Below are positions 1,281 to 19,091 of a DNA stretch of 35,279 nucleotides, one piece after another (the stretch's first letter is position 1; every line of letters begins with the position of its first letter). The DNA lies in contig CALVRT010000018.1 of assembly GCA_944358735.1 (NCBI GenBank), forward strand, positions 1 through 35,279. Reading direction: 5' to 3'. A program made the position numbers and the translations under genes. The notes beneath the pieces are model-generated. The model saw only the letters and a list, made by a program, of their open reading frames with translations, had not been told where the DNA came from and did no database searches. The stretch is from an uncultured Bacilli bacterium (lineage in GTDB: Bacteria; Bacillota_I; Bacilli_A; RF39; UBA660).

Positions 1281-2273
1281 ATGATAACGCCAAGACAAGA
1301 AGAACTTTTAAAACTAATTGTTGAAGACTATATTAAAACAGTAACTCCAGTTAGTTCTAAAGCGTTAGAAGATATTATGAAATGTTCTAGTGCGACAATT
1401 CGTAATGAAATGGCGGCTTTAGAAAGAGAAGGATTACTTGAAAAAACACATATATCTTCTGGTAGAGTTCCCAGTGATTTAGGTTATCGTTATTATGTGG
1501 ATAATTTAATGAAACCAGAAGAACTAACTGGTAAAGATGTTTTGAAATTACAAAAAATCTTTAAAAATAACAGTTTGGTTTTATCGGACGCCATAACTAA
1601 AAGTATGGAAATTGTTTCAGAACTAACGCATTATACAACTGTTGTTTTAGGTAGTTCTTCAGCCGATAATAAAGTGGCTAAAGTTGAAGCTTTACCGATT
1701 AGTGATAACAAGTTACTAGCGATTATCATTACTGACAAAGGCCATGTTGAAAATCGCCCGATTGTTATTAGTGAAGCTATTAACCGTAGTGAAATCAAAA
1801 AAACAGTTGATGTGATTAACAAATTTATTGTTGGCGTTCCACTGCCAGAAGTTCCTGAAGTGCTGGAGTTTGAAGTAAAGCCGGCTATCGCATCATATAC
1901 CAGTCAGTATGAAGCTCTTTATCAAGCTTTTTACAATGCGTTTAATGATTTTAGTTCTAAAATGAATGTTAAAGTTAGTGGAACTGGTAATTTACTTATG
2001 GAACCAGAATTTAATGATGCTGATAAAATAAGAGAACTTTTAAATAAATTTGATAACCCAAATTTAATAAAGTCAATTAAAACCGACGATGAAGGTATTC
2101 AAATCTATATTGGTAGTGAAAATTTATTAGACGATGATATTTCCATTATCAAAACCTCTTATTATAAAGATGGCGAAGAAGGAACGATTGCTTTAATTGG
2201 TCCTAAAAGGATGGAATATGGCAAGGCTGAAGCACTGCTTAATTATATTAAAAATAATATAGGAATTAGGTGA
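1281..2273 (+). CDS. hrcA: Heat-inducible transcription repressor HrcA
   Basis: HrcA represses class I heat-shock genes by binding CIRCE and needs chaperonin help to stay folded. The N-terminal winged helix is clear (MITPRQEELLKLIVEDYI, then PVSSKALEDIMKCSSATIRNEM as the recognition region, and HISSGRVPSDLGYRYYVD). The rest is the GAF-like dimerisation region, with the conserved C-terminal IGPKRMEYGKAEALL. At 330 residues it has a normal family length. It is the first gene of hrcA-grpE-dnaK-pepF-dnaJ and sits directly behind two CIRCE operators, so it represses itself. AGAGGTGAT precedes the ATG. grpE starts 4 nt after its stop. Confidence 0.97.
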   Translation: MITPRQEELLKLIVEDYIKTVTPVSSKALEDIMKCSSATIRNEMAALEREGLLEKTHISSGRVPSDLGYRYYVDNLMKPEELTGKDVLKLQKIFKNNSLVLSDAITKSMEIVSELTHYTTVVLGSSSADNKVAKVEALPISDNKLLAIIITDKGHVENRPIVISEAINRSEIKKTVDVINKFIVGVPLPEVPEVLEFEVKPAIASYTSQYEALYQAFYNAFNDFSSKMNVKVSGTGNLLMEPEFNDADKIRELLNKFDNPNLIKSIKTDDEGIQIYIGSENLLDDDISIIKTSYYKDGEEGTIALIGPKRMEYGKAEALLNYIKNNIGIR

Positions 2274-9324: not shown

Positions 9325-10503
9325 ATGTTTAGAAAAAATAAACTAGAAGAAATTGATGCTAAAAAAATAAATGAAGTAGCAACTTTATCTGCTAGAGTAT
9401 TAAAAATTATATATTTACTTTTAGCTTTTTTAGTCATTTATATTGTTATAAGATTATTTAAAGAAACCCAAATCTTATCGTTTATTGGAACAATAATTCA
9501 AATATTAGTTCCATTAATAATTGGTTTAATAATAGCTTGGTTATTTGAACCAGTAGTGGCTTTCTTTGAACGTAAGCATATTAAAAGAGTATTTGGAACA
9601 ATTATTACATACATTATTTTGTTTGCGATAGTTGCTCTAGTTATGTCAGCTTTAATTCCATTAATGGCTAATCAAATTATGCAGTTTGCAAAAGCCGCAC
9701 CAGATATTTTTAATTCAATAAAAAGTTGGTGTTTAGGCGTTTTTGATTATTTAAATACTATCGATTATATTGATGCTGCAGCTTTAAAAGACCAGTTCTT
9801 TGATAAGTTTGAAGAAATCGCCGTTGGAATTTCAAGTGCTTTACCAAATCAATTAATAGGCTTTGTATCAGGACTATTTTCTGGTATTGGCGCTTTTGGA
9901 ATAGGGTTAATTATTGGTTTCTTATTATTAGTTAATTTTAAAGGTATGAAAAACGTTTTAAAATTACTACCAGTTAAATGTCGTCAAACTGGTGAAGAAT
10001 TAGTCAGTGAAGTTAATGGTTCGCTTAGAAATTATGTTACTGGAGCCCTTATTGACTGCGGAGCAGTATTTGTTCTTACCTCAATTGGTTTCTGGGTAGT
10101 TGGTTTAGAAGCTCCCGTTTTATTCGGATTTTTCTGTGGCCTTACTAATATTATTCCTTATATAGGTCCTTATATTGGTGGCGCGCCAGCGGTTATTGTC
10201 GGCCTTACCCAAAGCCCAACAATTGGTATTTTAACATTAATTATTGTTGTTATTATTCAATTCTTGGAAGGTAACTTATTGCAACCGTTTATTATGTCAA
10301 AAACAACAAAATTAAATGCTATTATTATTATGCTGGGGTTACTAGTATTTGGTTATTTCTTTGGAATTATTGGTATGCTTTTATCAACACCAATACTTGC
10401 TGCCATAAAAACAATATTTCAGTTTTTCAATAAAAAATATGGACTTTTAGATTATACATTAGATGATGTAAGTAATAATAAAATCGTTGAAGAAAAAGAG
10501 TAA
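9325..10503 (+). CDS. AI-2E family transporter (YdbI/PerM/TqsA-type permease)
   Basis: 392-residue membrane protein with about eight predicted transmembrane segments in the AI-2E arrangement: two N-terminal helices (residues 24-75), a third near 90-115, a soluble helical middle region, then closely packed helices including FCGLTNIIPYIGPYIGGAPAVIVG and FLEGNLLQPFIMS, the conserved family signatures. Members export or leak small solutes; some are linked to autoinducer-2 and others to sodium/proton exchange, so the substrate cannot be assigned. AGAGGT precedes the ATG. The last codons and the stop are also the 5' strand of stem I of the alanine T-box that follows, tying this gene to the kinase-alaS genes in one transcript. 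Confidence 0.9.
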   Translation: MFRKNKLEEIDAKKINEVATLSARVLKIIYLLLAFLVIYIVIRLFKETQILSFIGTIIQILVPLIIGLIIAWLFEPVVAFFERKHIKRVFGTIITYIILFAIVALVMSALIPLMANQIMQFAKAAPDIFNSIKSWCLGVFDYLNTIDYIDAAALKDQFFDKFEEIAVGISSALPNQLIGFVSGLFSGIGAFGIGLIIGFLLLVNFKGMKNVLKLLPVKCRQTGEELVSEVNGSLRNYVTGALIDCGAVFVLTSIGFWVVGLEAPVLFGFFCGLTNIIPYIGPYIGGAPAVIVGLTQSPTIGILTLIIVVIIQFLEGNLLQPFIMSKTTKLNAIIIMLGLLVFGYFFGIIGMLLSTPILAAIKTIFQFFNKKYGLLDYTLDDVSNNKIVEEKE

Positions 10504-10680
10504 GTTAATATTTATTTTATAGAGAGCTAGTGGGTAGGTGAAAACTAGTAAATAATTTTAACTGAAGCTATTTTTGAGAGAAATGCAAACATTTCCGGTG
10601 ATGAGCCGTTATCATAATTAAGTTAAATTAGGATGGTACCACGGTTTTTCGTTCCTAGAAAATACCCGTGGTTTTTCTTT
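10493..10680 (+). promoter_or_regulatory. Alanine-specific T-box leader
   Basis: tRNA-sensing leader. AAAAA (10493-10497) pairs with TTTTT (10571-10575) and AGTTAA (10503-10508) with TTAACT (10558-10563). Between them lies a specifier loop with AGTA (10499-10502) opposite GAAGCTA (10564-10570); the specifier codon is GCT (10567-10569), alanine. The stem I apex carries AGAGAG at 10521-10526 and a CTAGT/ACTAG helix. A stem III-like hairpin AAATG/CATTT lies at 10581-10594. The T-box AGGATGGTACCACG (10630-10643) contains TGGT, which fits a tRNA ending ACCA, as tRNA-Ala does. The terminator is CCACGG (10639-10644) with CCGTGG (10666-10671) plus a T-run. Uncharged tRNA-Ala should open the downstream kinase and alaS genes. 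Stem I starts inside the upstream coding sequence, so the leader can only act on read-through transcription or a promoter inside that gene. Confidence 0.93.
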
Positions 10681-10694
10681 ATATGGAGGTAAAA

Positions 10695-11246
10695 ATGAAA
10701 GAGGCAAAAATATTTTTATTAGCTGGTAAAGCAAGAACTGGTAAAGATACTATGGCTAGTGAAATTATTAAATATTATCAAAATAAAAATAAGAAGGTAG
10801 TTAGATTAGGTTTTTCTGATTATATAAAAAATTATGCGATGAAGATTACTGATTGGGATGGCTCTGATGAAAATAAGCCAAGGGATTTATTACAAATGCT
10901 TGGAACTGATATCGTTAGAGAAAAAATAAATAAGGATTTTTTTATCAATCGTTTATGTGAAGATATTATTGTTTATAGTTATTTCTTTGATGTTATTGTT
11001 ATATCAGGCGCGAGATTTCCGAATGAATTAGATATTCCTAAAAGTAAATTTAAGAATGTTACGATAATTAAAATGGAAAGACCTAATAATGAAAATAATT
11101 TAACTGAAAAACAAAAAAAACATATAACAGAACATGCTTTAGAAGATTATCAAAATTATGATTATTTAATCGTTAATGATGGTGATGAAGATAATTTAAG
11201 AAAGAAAGCGCAGGATTTATTAGAAGAGGTGGAAAATGGATATTAA
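10695..11246 (+). CDS. P-loop kinase, deoxynucleoside monophosphate kinase-like
   Basis: 183 residues. The Walker A loop GKARTGKDT is at residues 11-19 and keeps the GKD form seen in phage-type deoxynucleotide monophosphate kinases. SDYIKNYAMKITDWDG and PRDLLQMLGTDIVREKINKDFF fit the substrate-binding and LID part of that family, and VIVISGARFPNEL fits the following strand. It would phosphorylate a (deoxy)nucleoside monophosphate; the exact base is not readable. The start at 10695 follows GGAGGT (10685-10690); an in-frame ATG at 10668 lies inside the T-box terminator and is unlikely. The 3' end overlaps alaS by 11 nt, so the two are translationally coupled and both are under alanine T-box control. 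The kinase-AlaRS pairing has no obvious pathway logic. Confidence 0.75.
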   Translation: MKEAKIFLLAGKARTGKDTMASEIIKYYQNKNKKVVRLGFSDYIKNYAMKITDWDGSDENKPRDLLQMLGTDIVREKINKDFFINRLCEDIIVYSYFFDVIVISGARFPNELDIPKSKFKNVTIIKMERPNNENNLTEKQKKHITEHALEDYQNYDYLIVNDGDEDNLRKKAQDLLEEVENGY

Positions 11247-12993
11247 AGATACATATATTAAGTTTTTTGAAAGCAAGGGGCATAAGTATATTCCAAGTAG
11301 TGGAGTTATTCCTGAAAATGACCCAACAAGCTTATTTACCACGGCCGGAATGCAACCTTTAGTGCCTTATCTACTAGGTGAAAAACATCCAGAAGGAACT
11401 AGACTTGTTGATGTTCAAAAATGTTTTCGAACTAATGATTTAGATGAAATTGGTGATACTACGCATCATACCTTTTTTGAAATGCTTGGTAACTGGTCTT
11501 TGGGTGATTATTTTAAAAAAGAATCGATTAGCTGGAGTTTTGAACTTTTGACTAAACATTTTAATATTCCGGTTCAAAAATTAGCTGTTACCGTTTTTGA
11601 GGGTGAAGGCAATATCCCAAGAGATGATGAGTCAGCGCAGATTTGGCAAAGTTTAGGTATTAGTAAAAAGCGAATTAGTTATTTAGGCAAGGATGATAAT
11701 TTTTGGACTGTTGGTGGCGTTGGACCATGCGGACCAGATACGGAAATTTTTTACTGGCGTAGTACAGAACCTGTCCCTGAAAAACACGACCCAAATGATG
11801 AGAGATGGGTGGAGATTTGGAACAATGTTTTTATGCAGTATTATTTAGATGAAAATGGTAATGTTTCGGAACTTAAACAAAAAAATGTTGATACTGGTAT
11901 GGGTGTAGAACGAATAACCGCTGTTTTAGAAGGCAAAGATGATAATTATAAGACTAGTATTTGGCAAGATGTTATTAATAAAATCGAAGAAATAAGTGGT
12001 AAAAAATATGATGATGAAGTTTATACTAAAGCTATGCGAATTGTTGCCGATCATATAAGAGCAGTAGTTATGATTAGTGGTGATGATGCTGGCATAAAAC
12101 CGTCAAACACAGACCAAGGTTATGTTTTAAGAAGAATAATTAGACGGATGGTTAGATATGCTAAAATGTTAGATATTGACATTAATAGTGATTGGGATAC
12201 TGTTTTAGCGCAAATGATTATTACTAAATATGAAAAGTATTATCAAGAGTTAACTCGTAATAATGAAGTTATCTTATCAGTTTTGAAAAACGAAAAAACT
12301 AAATTTAATCGTACTTTAGAAAAAGGCTTAAAAGAGTTTGAAAAAATAAAAAAATCTTTAACTGGTAAAGAAATTAATAAAGATTTAGCCTTTAAATTAT
12401 ATGATACTTATGGTTTTCCAATTGAACTTACTGAAGAACTCGCTAAAGAAGAAGGGCTTTCAGTTGATATTAAAGGTTTTGAAGAAAAATTTAAGGAACA
12501 TCAAGAAAAATCGAGAACTGCTTCCGCTGGTAAATTTAAAGGCGGTTTAGCTTCTGATGGCGTTATGGAAACTAAATATCATACAGCAACGCATTTATTA
12601 AATGCTGCCTTAAAAGAAGTTGTTAATAAAGATGTTCATCAAATGGGAAGCAATATTACCGCTGAAAGAATGCGTTTTGACTTTTCTTGCGACCATAAAT
12701 TAACTGATGAAGAAAAGAAAAAAACTGAAGAATTAGTTAATAAATGGATTAGTGAAGGAATAGATGTAACTCATGAAATTATGACAAAAGAAGAAGCTTT
12801 AAAATCAGGTGCGGAATGTATGTTTATTGAAAAGTATCCTGAAGAAGTGACCGTTTATAGTATTGGTAATATTTCTAAAGAACTATGTGGTGGACCGCAT
12901 GTTAAAAACACTAGAGAACTTGGACATTTTAAAATAAAAAAAGAAGAAGCTAGTAGTGCTGGTGTAAGAAGGATAAAAGCAATTTTAGAATAA
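11236..12993 (+). CDS. alaS: Alanyl-tRNA synthetase, short form lacking the editing beta-barrel and C-Ala domain
   Basis: Class II synthetase that charges tRNA-Ala. The catalytic core is intact: FFESKGHKYIPSSGVIPENDPT, MQPLVPYLLG, VQKCFRTNDLDEIGDTTHHT (motif 2 area), FFEMLGNWSLGDYFK and VDTGMGVERI (motif 3). The helical tRNA-recognition region follows to about residue 425. The editing core is present with HTATH (His449, His453) and CGGPH (Cys551, His555), the four metal ligands of the deacylase site; the usual CGGTH has become CGGPH. The protein has only 585 residues against about 870-880 normally. The beta-barrel with the TPFYAESGGQ segment is replaced by a short linker (about 426-448), and the whole C-terminal DHHA1/C-Ala domain is absent. 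The frame is clean and a terminator follows, so this is not a frameshift. It is controlled by the T-box at 10493. Confidence 0.93.
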   Translation: MDIKDTYIKFFESKGHKYIPSSGVIPENDPTSLFTTAGMQPLVPYLLGEKHPEGTRLVDVQKCFRTNDLDEIGDTTHHTFFEMLGNWSLGDYFKKESISWSFELLTKHFNIPVQKLAVTVFEGEGNIPRDDESAQIWQSLGISKKRISYLGKDDNFWTVGGVGPCGPDTEIFYWRSTEPVPEKHDPNDERWVEIWNNVFMQYYLDENGNVSELKQKNVDTGMGVERITAVLEGKDDNYKTSIWQDVINKIEEISGKKYDDEVYTKAMRIVADHIRAVVMISGDDAGIKPSNTDQGYVLRRIIRRMVRYAKMLDIDINSDWDTVLAQMIITKYEKYYQELTRNNEVILSVLKNEKTKFNRTLEKGLKEFEKIKKSLTGKEINKDLAFKLYDTYGFPIELTEELAKEEGLSVDIKGFEEKFKEHQEKSRTASAGKFKGGLASDGVMETKYHTATHLLNAALKEVVNKDVHQMGSNITAERMRFDFSCDHKLTDEEKKKTEELVNKWISEGIDVTHEIMTKEEALKSGAECMFIEKYPEEVTVYSIGNISKELCGGPHVKNTRELGHFKIKKEEASSAGVRRIKAILE

Positions 12994-15942: not shown

Positions 15943-16962
15943 TTATTGCTTCTCTTGATTTTTACTAAATTCAATTAATTCATCAAAATCAGATAAATAA
16001 TTTTGGTCTTGCTTTATTCTATATTTTTCATATTCTGATAATGCTAGCGCATTGGCTATTTCTCTTTTTATTTTTCCATTATCTTTTAAGATATTATACT
16101 CATTTAATTTTAAAAATAATTCTAGTTTTTCTTTCCACTCTTTCATAGAAATAATGTGTCTAAGTTTAACTTGCCTTTCTGCATAATCTAAATACATCGA
16201 TACTAAATTGTTTAATTCATTTATTTCTTCTTTATTTAAATAATTTTTAGCCACAATAACGTCACTTGATAATATTTTGCCTTTAGGAGCATTTTTCCAA
16301 GTTTGAAGTCCCATATTATCTTTATTAGAATCTGTTCTATTATAAATTATTTCTGGAGCTGTCATACCTGTGATTGCATAGTGCAGTTTATTTTGAACAT
16401 TTTTATAAAATTCTATTGTTGTTTCACTATTCTTATCATAATCATAGCTACACTCTTTATAAATGTCGGTTATTTTTTGATAAAATCTTCTTTCGCTGGC
16501 TCTAATCTCTTTTATTTTTAATAGTAATTCATCGAAATAATCTTTTCCAAATTTTGGGCCATTTTTCAAAAATTCTGAATTGACGACAAAACCTTTTTTA
16601 ATATATTCTTTTAAAGTATTAGTTGCCCATCTTCTAAACTGAGTAGCTTCAAAACTATTAACTCTATAGCCTACAGCAATAATGGCATCTAAACTATAAA
16701 ACACAACATTTCGTCCAACTTTTCTATTTCCTTCATTTTGAACTATTCGAATTTTTCGAATAGTTGAATTTTCTTCAAGTTCACCACTACTAAATATTTC
16801 TTTTAAATGATAATTAATTGTATTAACTTTAACCGAAAATAGTTCAGCCATAGTTTTTTGGGTTAACCAAAAATCTTCACTATCATATAGTACTTCAATA
16901 ATTTTGTTTCCTGTTTCATTTTGATATAAAACTATATTATTTAAATCAGCAATTTTATTCAT
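15943..16962 (-). CDS. RhuM family protein
   Basis: 339 residues, a complete member of the virulence RhuM family. The N-terminal DNA-binding-like part reads DFWLTQKTMAELFSVKVNTINYHLKEIF, followed by the very characteristic FYSLDAIIAVGYRVNSFEATQFRRWATNTLKEYIKKGF. The middle has ASERRFYQKITDIY and the tail MYLDYAERQVKLRHIISMKEW, also family hallmarks. The biochemical function is not established; family genes are found in genomic islands, near restriction-modification and toxin-antitoxin genes, and originally in a Salmonella pathogenicity island. GGAGGAG precedes the ATG, and TTGTAG-N17-GATAAT gives it its own promoter. Its neighbours (decayed AlbA_2 gene, repeats) also look like accessory DNA. 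Confidence 0.92.
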   Translation of the reverse strand: MNKIADLNNIVLYQNETGNKIIEVLYDSEDFWLTQKTMAELFSVKVNTINYHLKEIFSSGELEENSTIRKIRIVQNEGNRKVGRNVVFYSLDAIIAVGYRVNSFEATQFRRWATNTLKEYIKKGFVVNSEFLKNGPKFGKDYFDELLLKIKEIRASERRFYQKITDIYKECSYDYDKNSETTIEFYKNVQNKLHYAITGMTAPEIIYNRTDSNKDNMGLQTWKNAPKGKILSSDVIVAKNYLNKEEINELNNLVSMYLDYAERQVKLRHIISMKEWKEKLELFLKLNEYNILKDNGKIKREIANALALSEYEKYRIKQDQNYLSDFDELIEFSKNQEKQ

Positions 16963-17046: not shown

Positions 17047-17072
17047 AAAAAGAAAACTTTTTAGAGTTTTCT
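17044..17072 (-). terminator. Terminator of the MFS-CBS gene
   Basis: On the minus strand AGAAAACT (17072-17065) pairs with AGTTTTCT (17058-17051), followed by a T-run. The stem overlaps the stop codon of the transporter. Confidence 0.85.
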
Positions 17073-18927
17073 ATTTCGCCATTTCTAAATAAGTATTTAC
17101 CGCATAAGTCGTAATATTACTTCTATTAATAACACCGACCATTTTGCCATCTTTCATAACTGGAGCTTTTTTAAGATGTTTGCTTTCAAGTATTCGGCAT
17201 ACTTCTTCTAAATTAGTATTAATATCAATAGTAAGAACTTTCTTTTTGGCAATATCTTTAACTTTTAAATTCATTAAATCCTTAAGCTTTTCATCAAAAC
17301 CATTTTCAGTTCCTAAAAGAGCAAGTGAGTAGGCATTAACGAATAAAGGATGGGCTTTAGCTAAATAGCGCATTATATCGCCATCGCTGATGAAACCAGT
17401 TAATTTACCACTATTATTAATAACCGGTACACCGCTAATGTGTTTTTCACTAATTAGAGATAATGCCGTTAATAAATTATCATTTTCTTTAACTGTATAA
17501 ACATCTTTTTTCATAATTGATTCTAATTTTAAATCGGTCTTAATAGTAGCATTTTTTTCTAAACGTTTAACTTTTAAAGCTGTAATAAAACCGGCTAAAG
17601 CGATTACAAAAGCTACCGCTAAAGTAATGATAAAGGCAAATTCCATTGCTTCATAACTAGATGTTCCTGTGGAAATTTTAATATTTGTCATCAAAGAATA
17701 AACGCCGGTAAAGACAGAAGTTCCAATACAGCCAGCAATTTGGAAACCGGCGGTAATTAAAGTTACACCATGAGGATTTAATTCTTTAGGTAAAGCGCCA
17801 AGAGCGAAACTTTGGCTAGGTCCAATAATTAGAGACATACTACCAGCGATTGGAATATAAAGTAAAGCTATAAGAATTAAAGATTTTAAATTAATTGTTA
17901 ATATCATTATGATAATAAAGGTAAAAACTAGTAAATAACCTAAAGGAATAATAAATTTACCACCTTTATTATCATAGATTTTTCCCGCAATTGGCGCTAA
18001 AACACAAGAGACAACGATAGCTGGAAACAAGGTTAGGGAAGACGTTAGTGATGACATATTCATCGCATTTTGAATAAATAGTGGCATAATAACATTTAAA
18101 GATAAAAGAATCATCATAGCTATCATATTTAAGGCAATTCCTATTTTAAATCTTTTAACTTTTAATGGTTCAAAATTAACTAGTGGTACTTTTAAATTAT
18201 TTTGTCTTTTCGCAAAAATAATTAAACAGATAATTCCAATTATAATCGCACTAATAGCTACTAAAAGATTACCAGAGAATAAGGTTGAAATTCCATATAA
18301 AATACCAATTAAGGCTAAACTAATTAAAATGACTGATAAAATATCTAAATAGGGATTTTCCAATTTTTTATCTTTACCAATAATAATGGCACCCATAATA
18401 AATAAAATAATCATTAAAGCAGCAAAGACAAAGAATAAAATGTGCCAAGTACTTATGCTAAGTAAAACACCAGCTATAATAATACTAAATGATGGCCCTA
18501 AAGTTGTTGCTGCTCCCATTAGGCCCATATAAGAACCCATTTTTTCTTTAGGCACGACACTTAAAACCATATTCATACCAATTGGAGTAAGCATTCCTGT
18601 TCCTAGAGATTGTAAAATTCTACCACCAAGCATAACTGGGAATGATGGAGCAAAAGCGCAGACTAAACTGCCAGCAATTAAAAGGCCAACGGTAAATAAG
18701 AAAAGGGGTCTAGTGGCAAACTTGCGATATAAAAACGAGGCAATTGGAATCATAATTGCCGCCCCTAACATATAAGCGGTTGTTAGCCACTGAACTGTTG
18801 AGACTTCAACATTAAAATCTTTCATAATTGGCGTTAAAGCAATATTAAGAAACGTTTCATTAAACGTTCCTAAAAAAGCTCCAAACGCAGCAACTATTAA
18901 GATAAGTAACGGTTTTTTGTTTTTCAT
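17071..18927 (-). CDS. MFS drug:H+ antiporter (DHA2/EmrB-like) fused to a C-terminal CBS-domain pair
   Basis: 618 residues. The first ~450 form a 14-helix DHA2-type transporter: FNETFLNIALTPIMKDFNVEVSTVQWLTTAYML (helices 1-2), GGRILQSLGTGMLTPIGM (motif B/C-like region) and LMGAATTLGPSFSIIIAGVL (antiporter motif C). Residues about 466-618 are soluble: CBS1 (LESIMKKDVYTVKENDNLLTALSLI, then HISGVPVINNSGKLTGFISDGDIM), an insert of about 30 residues, and CBS2 (VKDIAKKKVLTIDINTNLEEVCRIL, then HLKKAPVMKDGKMVGVINRSNI). CBS pairs bind adenine nucleotides and gate some channels and transporters, so export may respond to AMP/ATP or a cyclic dinucleotide (inference). The start at 18927 follows AAGGAGG; an upstream ATG at 18966 lies inside the leader structure. 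A structured leader precedes it. Confidence 0.92.
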   Translation of the reverse strand: MKNKKPLLILIVAAFGAFLGTFNETFLNIALTPIMKDFNVEVSTVQWLTTAYMLGAAIMIPIASFLYRKFATRPLFLFTVGLLIAGSLVCAFAPSFPVMLGGRILQSLGTGMLTPIGMNMVLSVVPKEKMGSYMGLMGAATTLGPSFSIIIAGVLLSISTWHILFFVFAALMIILFIMGAIIIGKDKKLENPYLDILSVILISLALIGILYGISTLFSGNLLVAISAIIIGIICLIIFAKRQNNLKVPLVNFEPLKVKRFKIGIALNMIAMMILLSLNVIMPLFIQNAMNMSSLTSSLTLFPAIVVSCVLAPIAGKIYDNKGGKFIIPLGYLLVFTFIIIMILTINLKSLILIALLYIPIAGSMSLIIGPSQSFALGALPKELNPHGVTLITAGFQIAGCIGTSVFTGVYSLMTNIKISTGTSSYEAMEFAFIITLAVAFVIALAGFITALKVKRLEKNATIKTDLKLESIMKKDVYTVKENDNLLTALSLISEKHISGVPVINNSGKLTGFISDGDIMRYLAKAHPLFVNAYSLALLGTENGFDEKLKDLMNLKVKDIAKKKVLTIDINTNLEEVCRILESKHLKKAPVMKDGKMVGVINRSNITTYAVNTYLEMAK

Positions 18928-18949: not shown

Positions 18950-19031
18950 AAGCCTAAAAAAAACACATATAGTATGCATTTCCTTGCGTAATCAGATTTA
19001 CGTGGTATCCACTACATGTGTCATCAGGCTT
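18950..19031 (-). ncRNA. Putative structured cis-regulatory leader of the MFS-CBS gene
   Basis: Read on the minus strand, AAGCCT (19031-19026) pairs with AGGCTT (18955-18950). Inside, a 10-bp helix pairs 19020-19011 (CACATGTAGT) with 18973-18964 (ACTATATGTG); its only non-Watson-Crick pair is G-U on this strand but A-C on the other, so the minus-strand RNA is the one that folds. The enclosed 37 nt can form CGTAA/TTACG (hairpin 19002-18987), a GTGG/CCAC hairpin that competes with the main helix, and GCA/TGC (18987-18976). Eight T follow the long helix directly. A micro-ORF MTHVVDTT (19024-18998) runs through it without a ribosome-binding site. It resembles no riboswitch class I know; an attenuator or new riboswitch is inferred. 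Confidence 0.5.
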
Positions 19032-19091
19032 TTTGCATTAATTATTTTAGCACAATTAAAAGCTAAAAGTCAAATGAAAATTACCAAAAAC

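Follow-up and report, generated by a model that had tools for sequence, protein, structure and literature searches.

In the guanidine-IV riboswitch (the mepA motif, or GGAM-1), the loop of a 5′ hairpin kisses the loop of the terminator, and the genes downstream encode MATE proteins, other exporters, and sugE (PMC7736828). The orphan motif Gd4v is also a two-hairpin pseudoknot and is linked to transaminase and GNAT enzymes (PMC9788692). The yjdF RNA is described, at the level of the abstract, as an orphan riboswitch candidate that is located before a gene of unknown function and binds diverse compounds (PMC4793209). The leader described here was found in a 35,279-nucleotide stretch of DNA from an uncultured Bacilli bacterium (contig CALVRT010000018.1), the whole of which is referred to as the window. 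Judged from its sequence and that of its homologues, this element appears, with reasonable confidence, to be a cis-acting, transcription-terminating leader of an undescribed family and most likely an ON riboswitch, its signal presumably being a small molecule.

The features of the leader are collected in Table 1. A first-pass annotation of the window had proposed a transcription-attenuating structured leader on the basis of a long helix, an outer 6-bp helix and an adjoining U8 tract, all of which were present in the minus-strand RNA on reading of the sequence and on folding. The MFE of this strand was −27.0 kcal/mol (z, −4.49), a value equalled by 1 of 200 dinucleotide shuffles, while the plus strand gave −19.4 kcal/mol (z, −3.03) in the same folding test; the minus strand was favoured because both its MFE and its z value were the stronger. 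The lone wobble of the main helix, a G-U pair on the minus strand that would read A-C if the plus strand were transcribed, pointed to the same strand, as had been argued. The promoter-like site would place the start of transcription near position 19037, just 5′ of the element, so that the leader is predicted to form the 5′ end of the mRNA. Most homologues had a promoter-like pair at a comparable distance, with a median of 22 nt between the end of the −10 element and GACAC (10th to 90th percentile, 17 to 31 nt).

Table 1. Positions in the window of the leader, its parts and the gene behind it
Feature	Positions	Strand	Basis
Promoter-like site: −35 TTGACT, 18-nt spacer, −10 TAAAAT preceded by TG	19044-19073	−	10/12 matches
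Leader RNA, predicted mRNA 5′ end	18950-19031	−	
Outer helix P0 (6 bp), 5′ strand AAGCCU	19031-19026	−	fold and partner-swap test
P0, 3′ strand AGGCUU, only in read-through RNA	18955-18950	−	partner-swap test over homologues
P1, 5′ part CCU, inside the P0 5′ strand	19028-19026	−	fold and partner-swap test
P1, 3′ strand AGG, pairs with CCU 19028-19026	18984-18982	−	partner-swap test over homologues
J1/2 GACACAUGUA, conserved; core strand and terminator 5′ arm	19013-19022	−	column conservation, 47 distinct rows; terminator pairing
P2, 5′ strand GUGG	19012-19009	−	compensatory changes at 3/4 pairs
P2 loop AUA	19008-19006	−	
P2, 3′ strand CCAC	19005-19002	−	compensatory changes
J2/1 GUAAAUCUGAUUAC	18988-19001	−	column conservation, 47 distinct rows
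Main (terminator) helix, 11 bp, ACACAUGUAGU / ACUAUAUGUGU	19021-19011 / 18973-18963	−	fold and terminator analysis
Terminator U8 tract	18956-18963	−	sequence; homologues carry T-runs of 5-9
MFS transporter (DHA2-type, two C-terminal CBS domains, 618 aa), gene behind the leader	17071-18927	−	

Other elements were noted in the window. An ORF resembling a RhuM-type protein (15943-16962, minus strand) adjoins the MFS-CBS gene. On the plus strand, a T-box leader (10478-10659; Rfam RF00230, 106 bits) precedes a small ORF that looks kinase-like (10668-11246) and overlaps the next ORF (11236-12993), one that reads like alanyl-tRNA synthetase.

The MFS-CBS gene of the window was present in 12 more genomes of the genus, in one as a C-terminal fragment and in another split over two contigs, and the leaders of these genes were recognisably similar to that of the window. 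A covariance model (R1), built from nine leaders of the genus with P2 alone as the given structure, retrieved more leaders in the genus and family, and a second model (R2) widened the reach to the order, class and phylum. In all, 56 homologous leaders with scores of 44 to 72 bits were aligned. Most belong to the family of the window, in which they are spread over about 29 genera, and five come from four further families; as one family supplies most copies, fewer than 56 of them count as independent. Five family labels cover the carriers (f1, which is the window's own, f7, f11, f13 and f16), and their near relatives, where named, are uncultured Bacilli. Family-level searches around two distant carriers yielded zero additional carriers. 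Viral contigs contained no match to the full pattern, the short-word matches in them being weak under R2 (best, 29 bits), and a blastn search of plasmids with one copy as the query found nothing. Inspected matches below about 32 bits were unrelated sequence, except for diverged leaders before MFS-CBS genes in L051, L052 and L053, which are the same leaders as L011, L009 and L010. These score about 20 bits and retain GACACAAGUAGC, the terminator and the gene, with GUAAAUCUGAUUAC swapped for the shorter UACUGAUACAGAUGAGC; they may represent a variant of changed specificity.

All 56 leaders were located directly upstream of, and on the same strand as, a gene for a membrane protein. The genes were of three types, DUF2798-like (44), MFS with CBS domains (9, four of which were missed by a word-pattern script and assigned by direct reading) and MATE pump (3). 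The first-pass annotation was thus correct in placing the leader before an MFS-CBS gene, but the element is not specific for such genes, since a DUF2798-like gene follows most copies and a MATE pump follows some. The gene was even seen to be exchanged within one genus, where most carriers have the MFS-CBS gene behind the RNA and L049 has a DUF2798-like one. Pfam confirmed MATE in both of the MATE proteins tested and assigned the L105 protein to DUF2798; three DUF2798-like proteins from the family of the window were also scanned, of which two scored just under the cut-off and one had no match, but these align with bona fide DUF2798 members. Divergent DUF2798 genes in L187, L189, L190 and L191 were without such a leader (4/4). 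In L105, a closed 3.0-Mb genome, the DUF2798 leader is followed after about 700 nt by a lysine riboswitch (2271-2449; 113.6 bits).

Alignment of the homologues defined a conserved core consisting of GACACAUGUAG, the hairpin P2 and GUAAAUCUGAUUAC. The last of these, J2/1, was the most conserved stretch, with 13 of its 14 positions at least 91% identical and the first G 72% identical over 47 distinct rows, and is the probable binding core on the strength of this conservation. The interior of the leader had been described as possibly multi-branched; it is structured, but as a single conserved hairpin between invariant single strands. A search of homologous leaders for covariation had also been proposed, with its absence as the result that would speak against the structure; covariation was detected in P2, whose strands GUGG and CCAC had been correctly identified as competing with the main helix. 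P2 was paired in 98.9% of cells, and its partners changed together, with counts of UA 26, AU 20 and CG 1 at one pair and of CG 31, UA 13 and GC 1 at another. For the whole given structure, 48 cells were changed on both sides versus 16.7 in shuffles, a control that leaves relatedness in. The covariation score was 0.312 versus at most 0.119 in slid controls, which keep relatedness yet score far lower.

Two further helices are statistically supported by pairing comparisons among the homologues. P1, just outside the core, is variable in sequence yet paired far better within its own RNA than with swapped partners (0 of 5000 swaps reached the observed value; z, 5.9 to 7.8). The window copy of P1 is weak, with 3 bp formed from nucleotides common to P0, and the helix is longer in relatives. 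P0, a helix between the 5′ end and the bases that follow the U-tract, gave 0 of 5000 (z, 5.4) in the same test; in the nine MFS leaders alone it was not significant (270 of 5000). The MFE fold also contains an inner hairpin, GUAA/UUAC, which was rejected, as 17 cells broke the pairing at two pairs and none restored it.

A terminator-like helix abuts the U-tract, with a helix score of 23.5 versus 14.1 with shuffled cores. Its 5′ arm begins in J1/2, within GACACAUGUAG, in 46 of the 56 leaders and in P2 or GUAAAUCUGAUUAC in most of the remainder (L046, L048 and L049 among them), indicating that the terminator nearly always borrows some part of the core while varying in which. As GACACAUGUAG serves in those 46 leaders both as a core strand and as the terminator 5′ arm, core and terminator would be mutually exclusive. 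In agreement with this, the median predicted pairing of P2 was 0.76 for RNA of aptamer length and 0.00 for the full leader, in which J1/2 was predicted to pair downstream at 0.97. For the window copy, the full leader reached −18.6 kcal/mol in its terminator fold and the aptamer-length RNA with P2 formed was at −6.8 kcal/mol, so that a signal acting during transcription would be required to stabilise an ON state. One MATE leader, L109 (core at 1501-1558, minus strand), had no evident terminator and a Shine-Dalgarno-like GGAGG about 30 nt past the core; control might be translational in this case. A terminator that acts constitutively, or intergenic DNA that is conserved but contains no switch, would also account for the terminator helix and U-tract, but needs neither an invariant 14-nt single strand nor a covarying competing hairpin, which are the best-conserved parts of these leaders, and is barely conceivable as an explanation.

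Antibiotic-sensing leaders of efflux genes use ribosome-mediated leader-peptide attenuation, and the first-pass annotation had offered this as an alternative, with a micro-ORF, MTHVVDTT, controlling termination. The micro-ORF exists (19024-18998) and spans the terminator 5′ arm, but it has no Shine-Dalgarno sequence and its ATG start codon is kept in just 5 of the 56 leaders. Only 7 of the 56 contained, ahead of the terminator, any ATG ORF with a 5-nt match to the Shine-Dalgarno sequence, and neither the micro-ORF nor any Shine-Dalgarno-led ORF was conserved across the 56 leaders. Conservation resides in the RNA core rather than in a peptide, and a conserved, translated short ORF across the attenuator was not found in this set. 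Control by a leader peptide is, hence, very improbable.

Under the riboswitch reading, GACACAUGUAG would, when the signal is absent, pair with the strand that leads into the U-tract, and termination would occur about 80 nt after the start. If the signal were present during synthesis of the core, P1, P2, GACACAUGUA and GUAAAUCUGAUUAC would fold as a compact core that withholds GACACAUGUAG from the terminator, allowing RNA polymerase to read through and the exporter to be made. P0 would form in the read-through RNA alone and may shield the mRNA 5′ end. From the arrangement of the elements and the types of gene, we infer a small-molecule signal that switches the gene on and is itself exported by these proteins. 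Homology, covariation of P2, the terminator, the shared strand and the gene association are established at the level of sequence, and the element combines a conserved structured leader and an expression platform with occurrence in several lineages before functionally related genes, as is general for riboswitches. An attenuator run by an RNA-binding antiterminator protein would look alike, with a conserved single-stranded core, a covarying hairpin and an exclusive terminator. Such a protein would have to act on one core that is shared, across several bacterial families, by the leaders of three unrelated types of gene, whereas the genes directly downstream encode transporter-like membrane proteins and not regulators, and conservation of at least 91% at 13 of 14 J2/1 positions is typical of binding pockets. 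We therefore consider protein-mediated control unlikely, and the small-molecule riboswitch is the preferred reading.

The chances are about even that the leader represents a new riboswitch class that senses a toxic gut compound and induces three unrelated exporters. If so, the uncharacterised DUF2798-like membrane proteins would be a new exporter family with a substrate common to certain MATE and MFS-CBS pumps, and the identity of the ligand would suggest a likely function for the DUF2798-like, MATE and MFS proteins together. An orphan riboswitch candidate in gut bacteria would thus offer a direct route to the substrate of three protein families.

A different leader, GGAAACGACACAU ... AACGAACAACAC, was detected before DUF2798 genes in Lachnospira eligens (L134) and in L136 to L138, L183 to L185 and L188. 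Its carriers, which belong to Clostridia and other Bacilli, comprise L. eligens, human-gut scaffolds and several genomes of family f13, and it has the form AUUGGAAACGACACAU-hairpin-AACGAACAACAC (L134, 1423-1480; L136, 560-630). An Rfam scan of four copies gave no match. This leader resembles the present one in serving the same gene family and in sharing similar words (AACGACACAU, and AUGU before the U-tract in several copies), but its core is different, and the best R2 score was 19.4 bits with an ambiguous alignment. Distant kinship with the present leader is one possibility, and an independent motif for the same gene is another; if the two are related, the class reaches Clostridia.

The scan against Rfam that had been suggested for the leader gave, with Rfam 15 in gathering and E-value modes, no match to a known family and only unrelated or chance matches at these leaders. 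Two leaders upstream of SugE-type genes (L118, 1040-1145; L119, 1075-1150) were judged by eye to be guanidine-IV-like. As these were also undetected by Rfam 15, the lack of a match is weak evidence of novelty. Searches of the main text of open-access papers gave no description of the motif or its core sequence, and DUF2798 was named in a single, unrelated paper. The likeness to yjdF lies in being an orphan candidate before a gene of unknown function, and the Rfam result, in which the present leaders matched no family, would set the two apart (PMC4793209).

Guanidine-IV and its orphan relative Gd4v may be regarded as the closest systems in spirit, and a divergent member of either could be suspected, since they, too, are located before MATE genes and have aptamer nucleotides that form part of the terminator stem (PMC7736828, PMC9788692, PMC12186494). 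Both, however, consist of two hairpins with a loop-loop pseudoknot, the second hairpin being the terminator, an arrangement not found here; it cannot be built because the predicted start lies too near the core, about 10 to 25 nt before it, leaving no room for a 5′ hairpin. The guanidine-IV-like leaders of L118 and L119 are unlike the present core, and no SugE-type gene was found behind any of the 56 leaders. Membership in either class is, hence, highly unlikely. Like guanidine-IV, the present leader would be a transcriptional switch in which aptamer nucleotides overlap the terminator stem and MATE or exporter genes lie downstream (PMC7736828). Unlike guanidine-IV, it is without a 5′ hairpin, has the core GACACAUGUAG-P2-GUAAAUCUGAUUAC and precedes DUF2798-like, MFS-CBS and MATE genes rather than sugE; unlike with Gd4v, transaminase and GNAT enzymes were not seen behind these leaders. 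The present element would thus offer a compact architecture that overlaps its terminator without the kissing hairpin of guanidine-IV.
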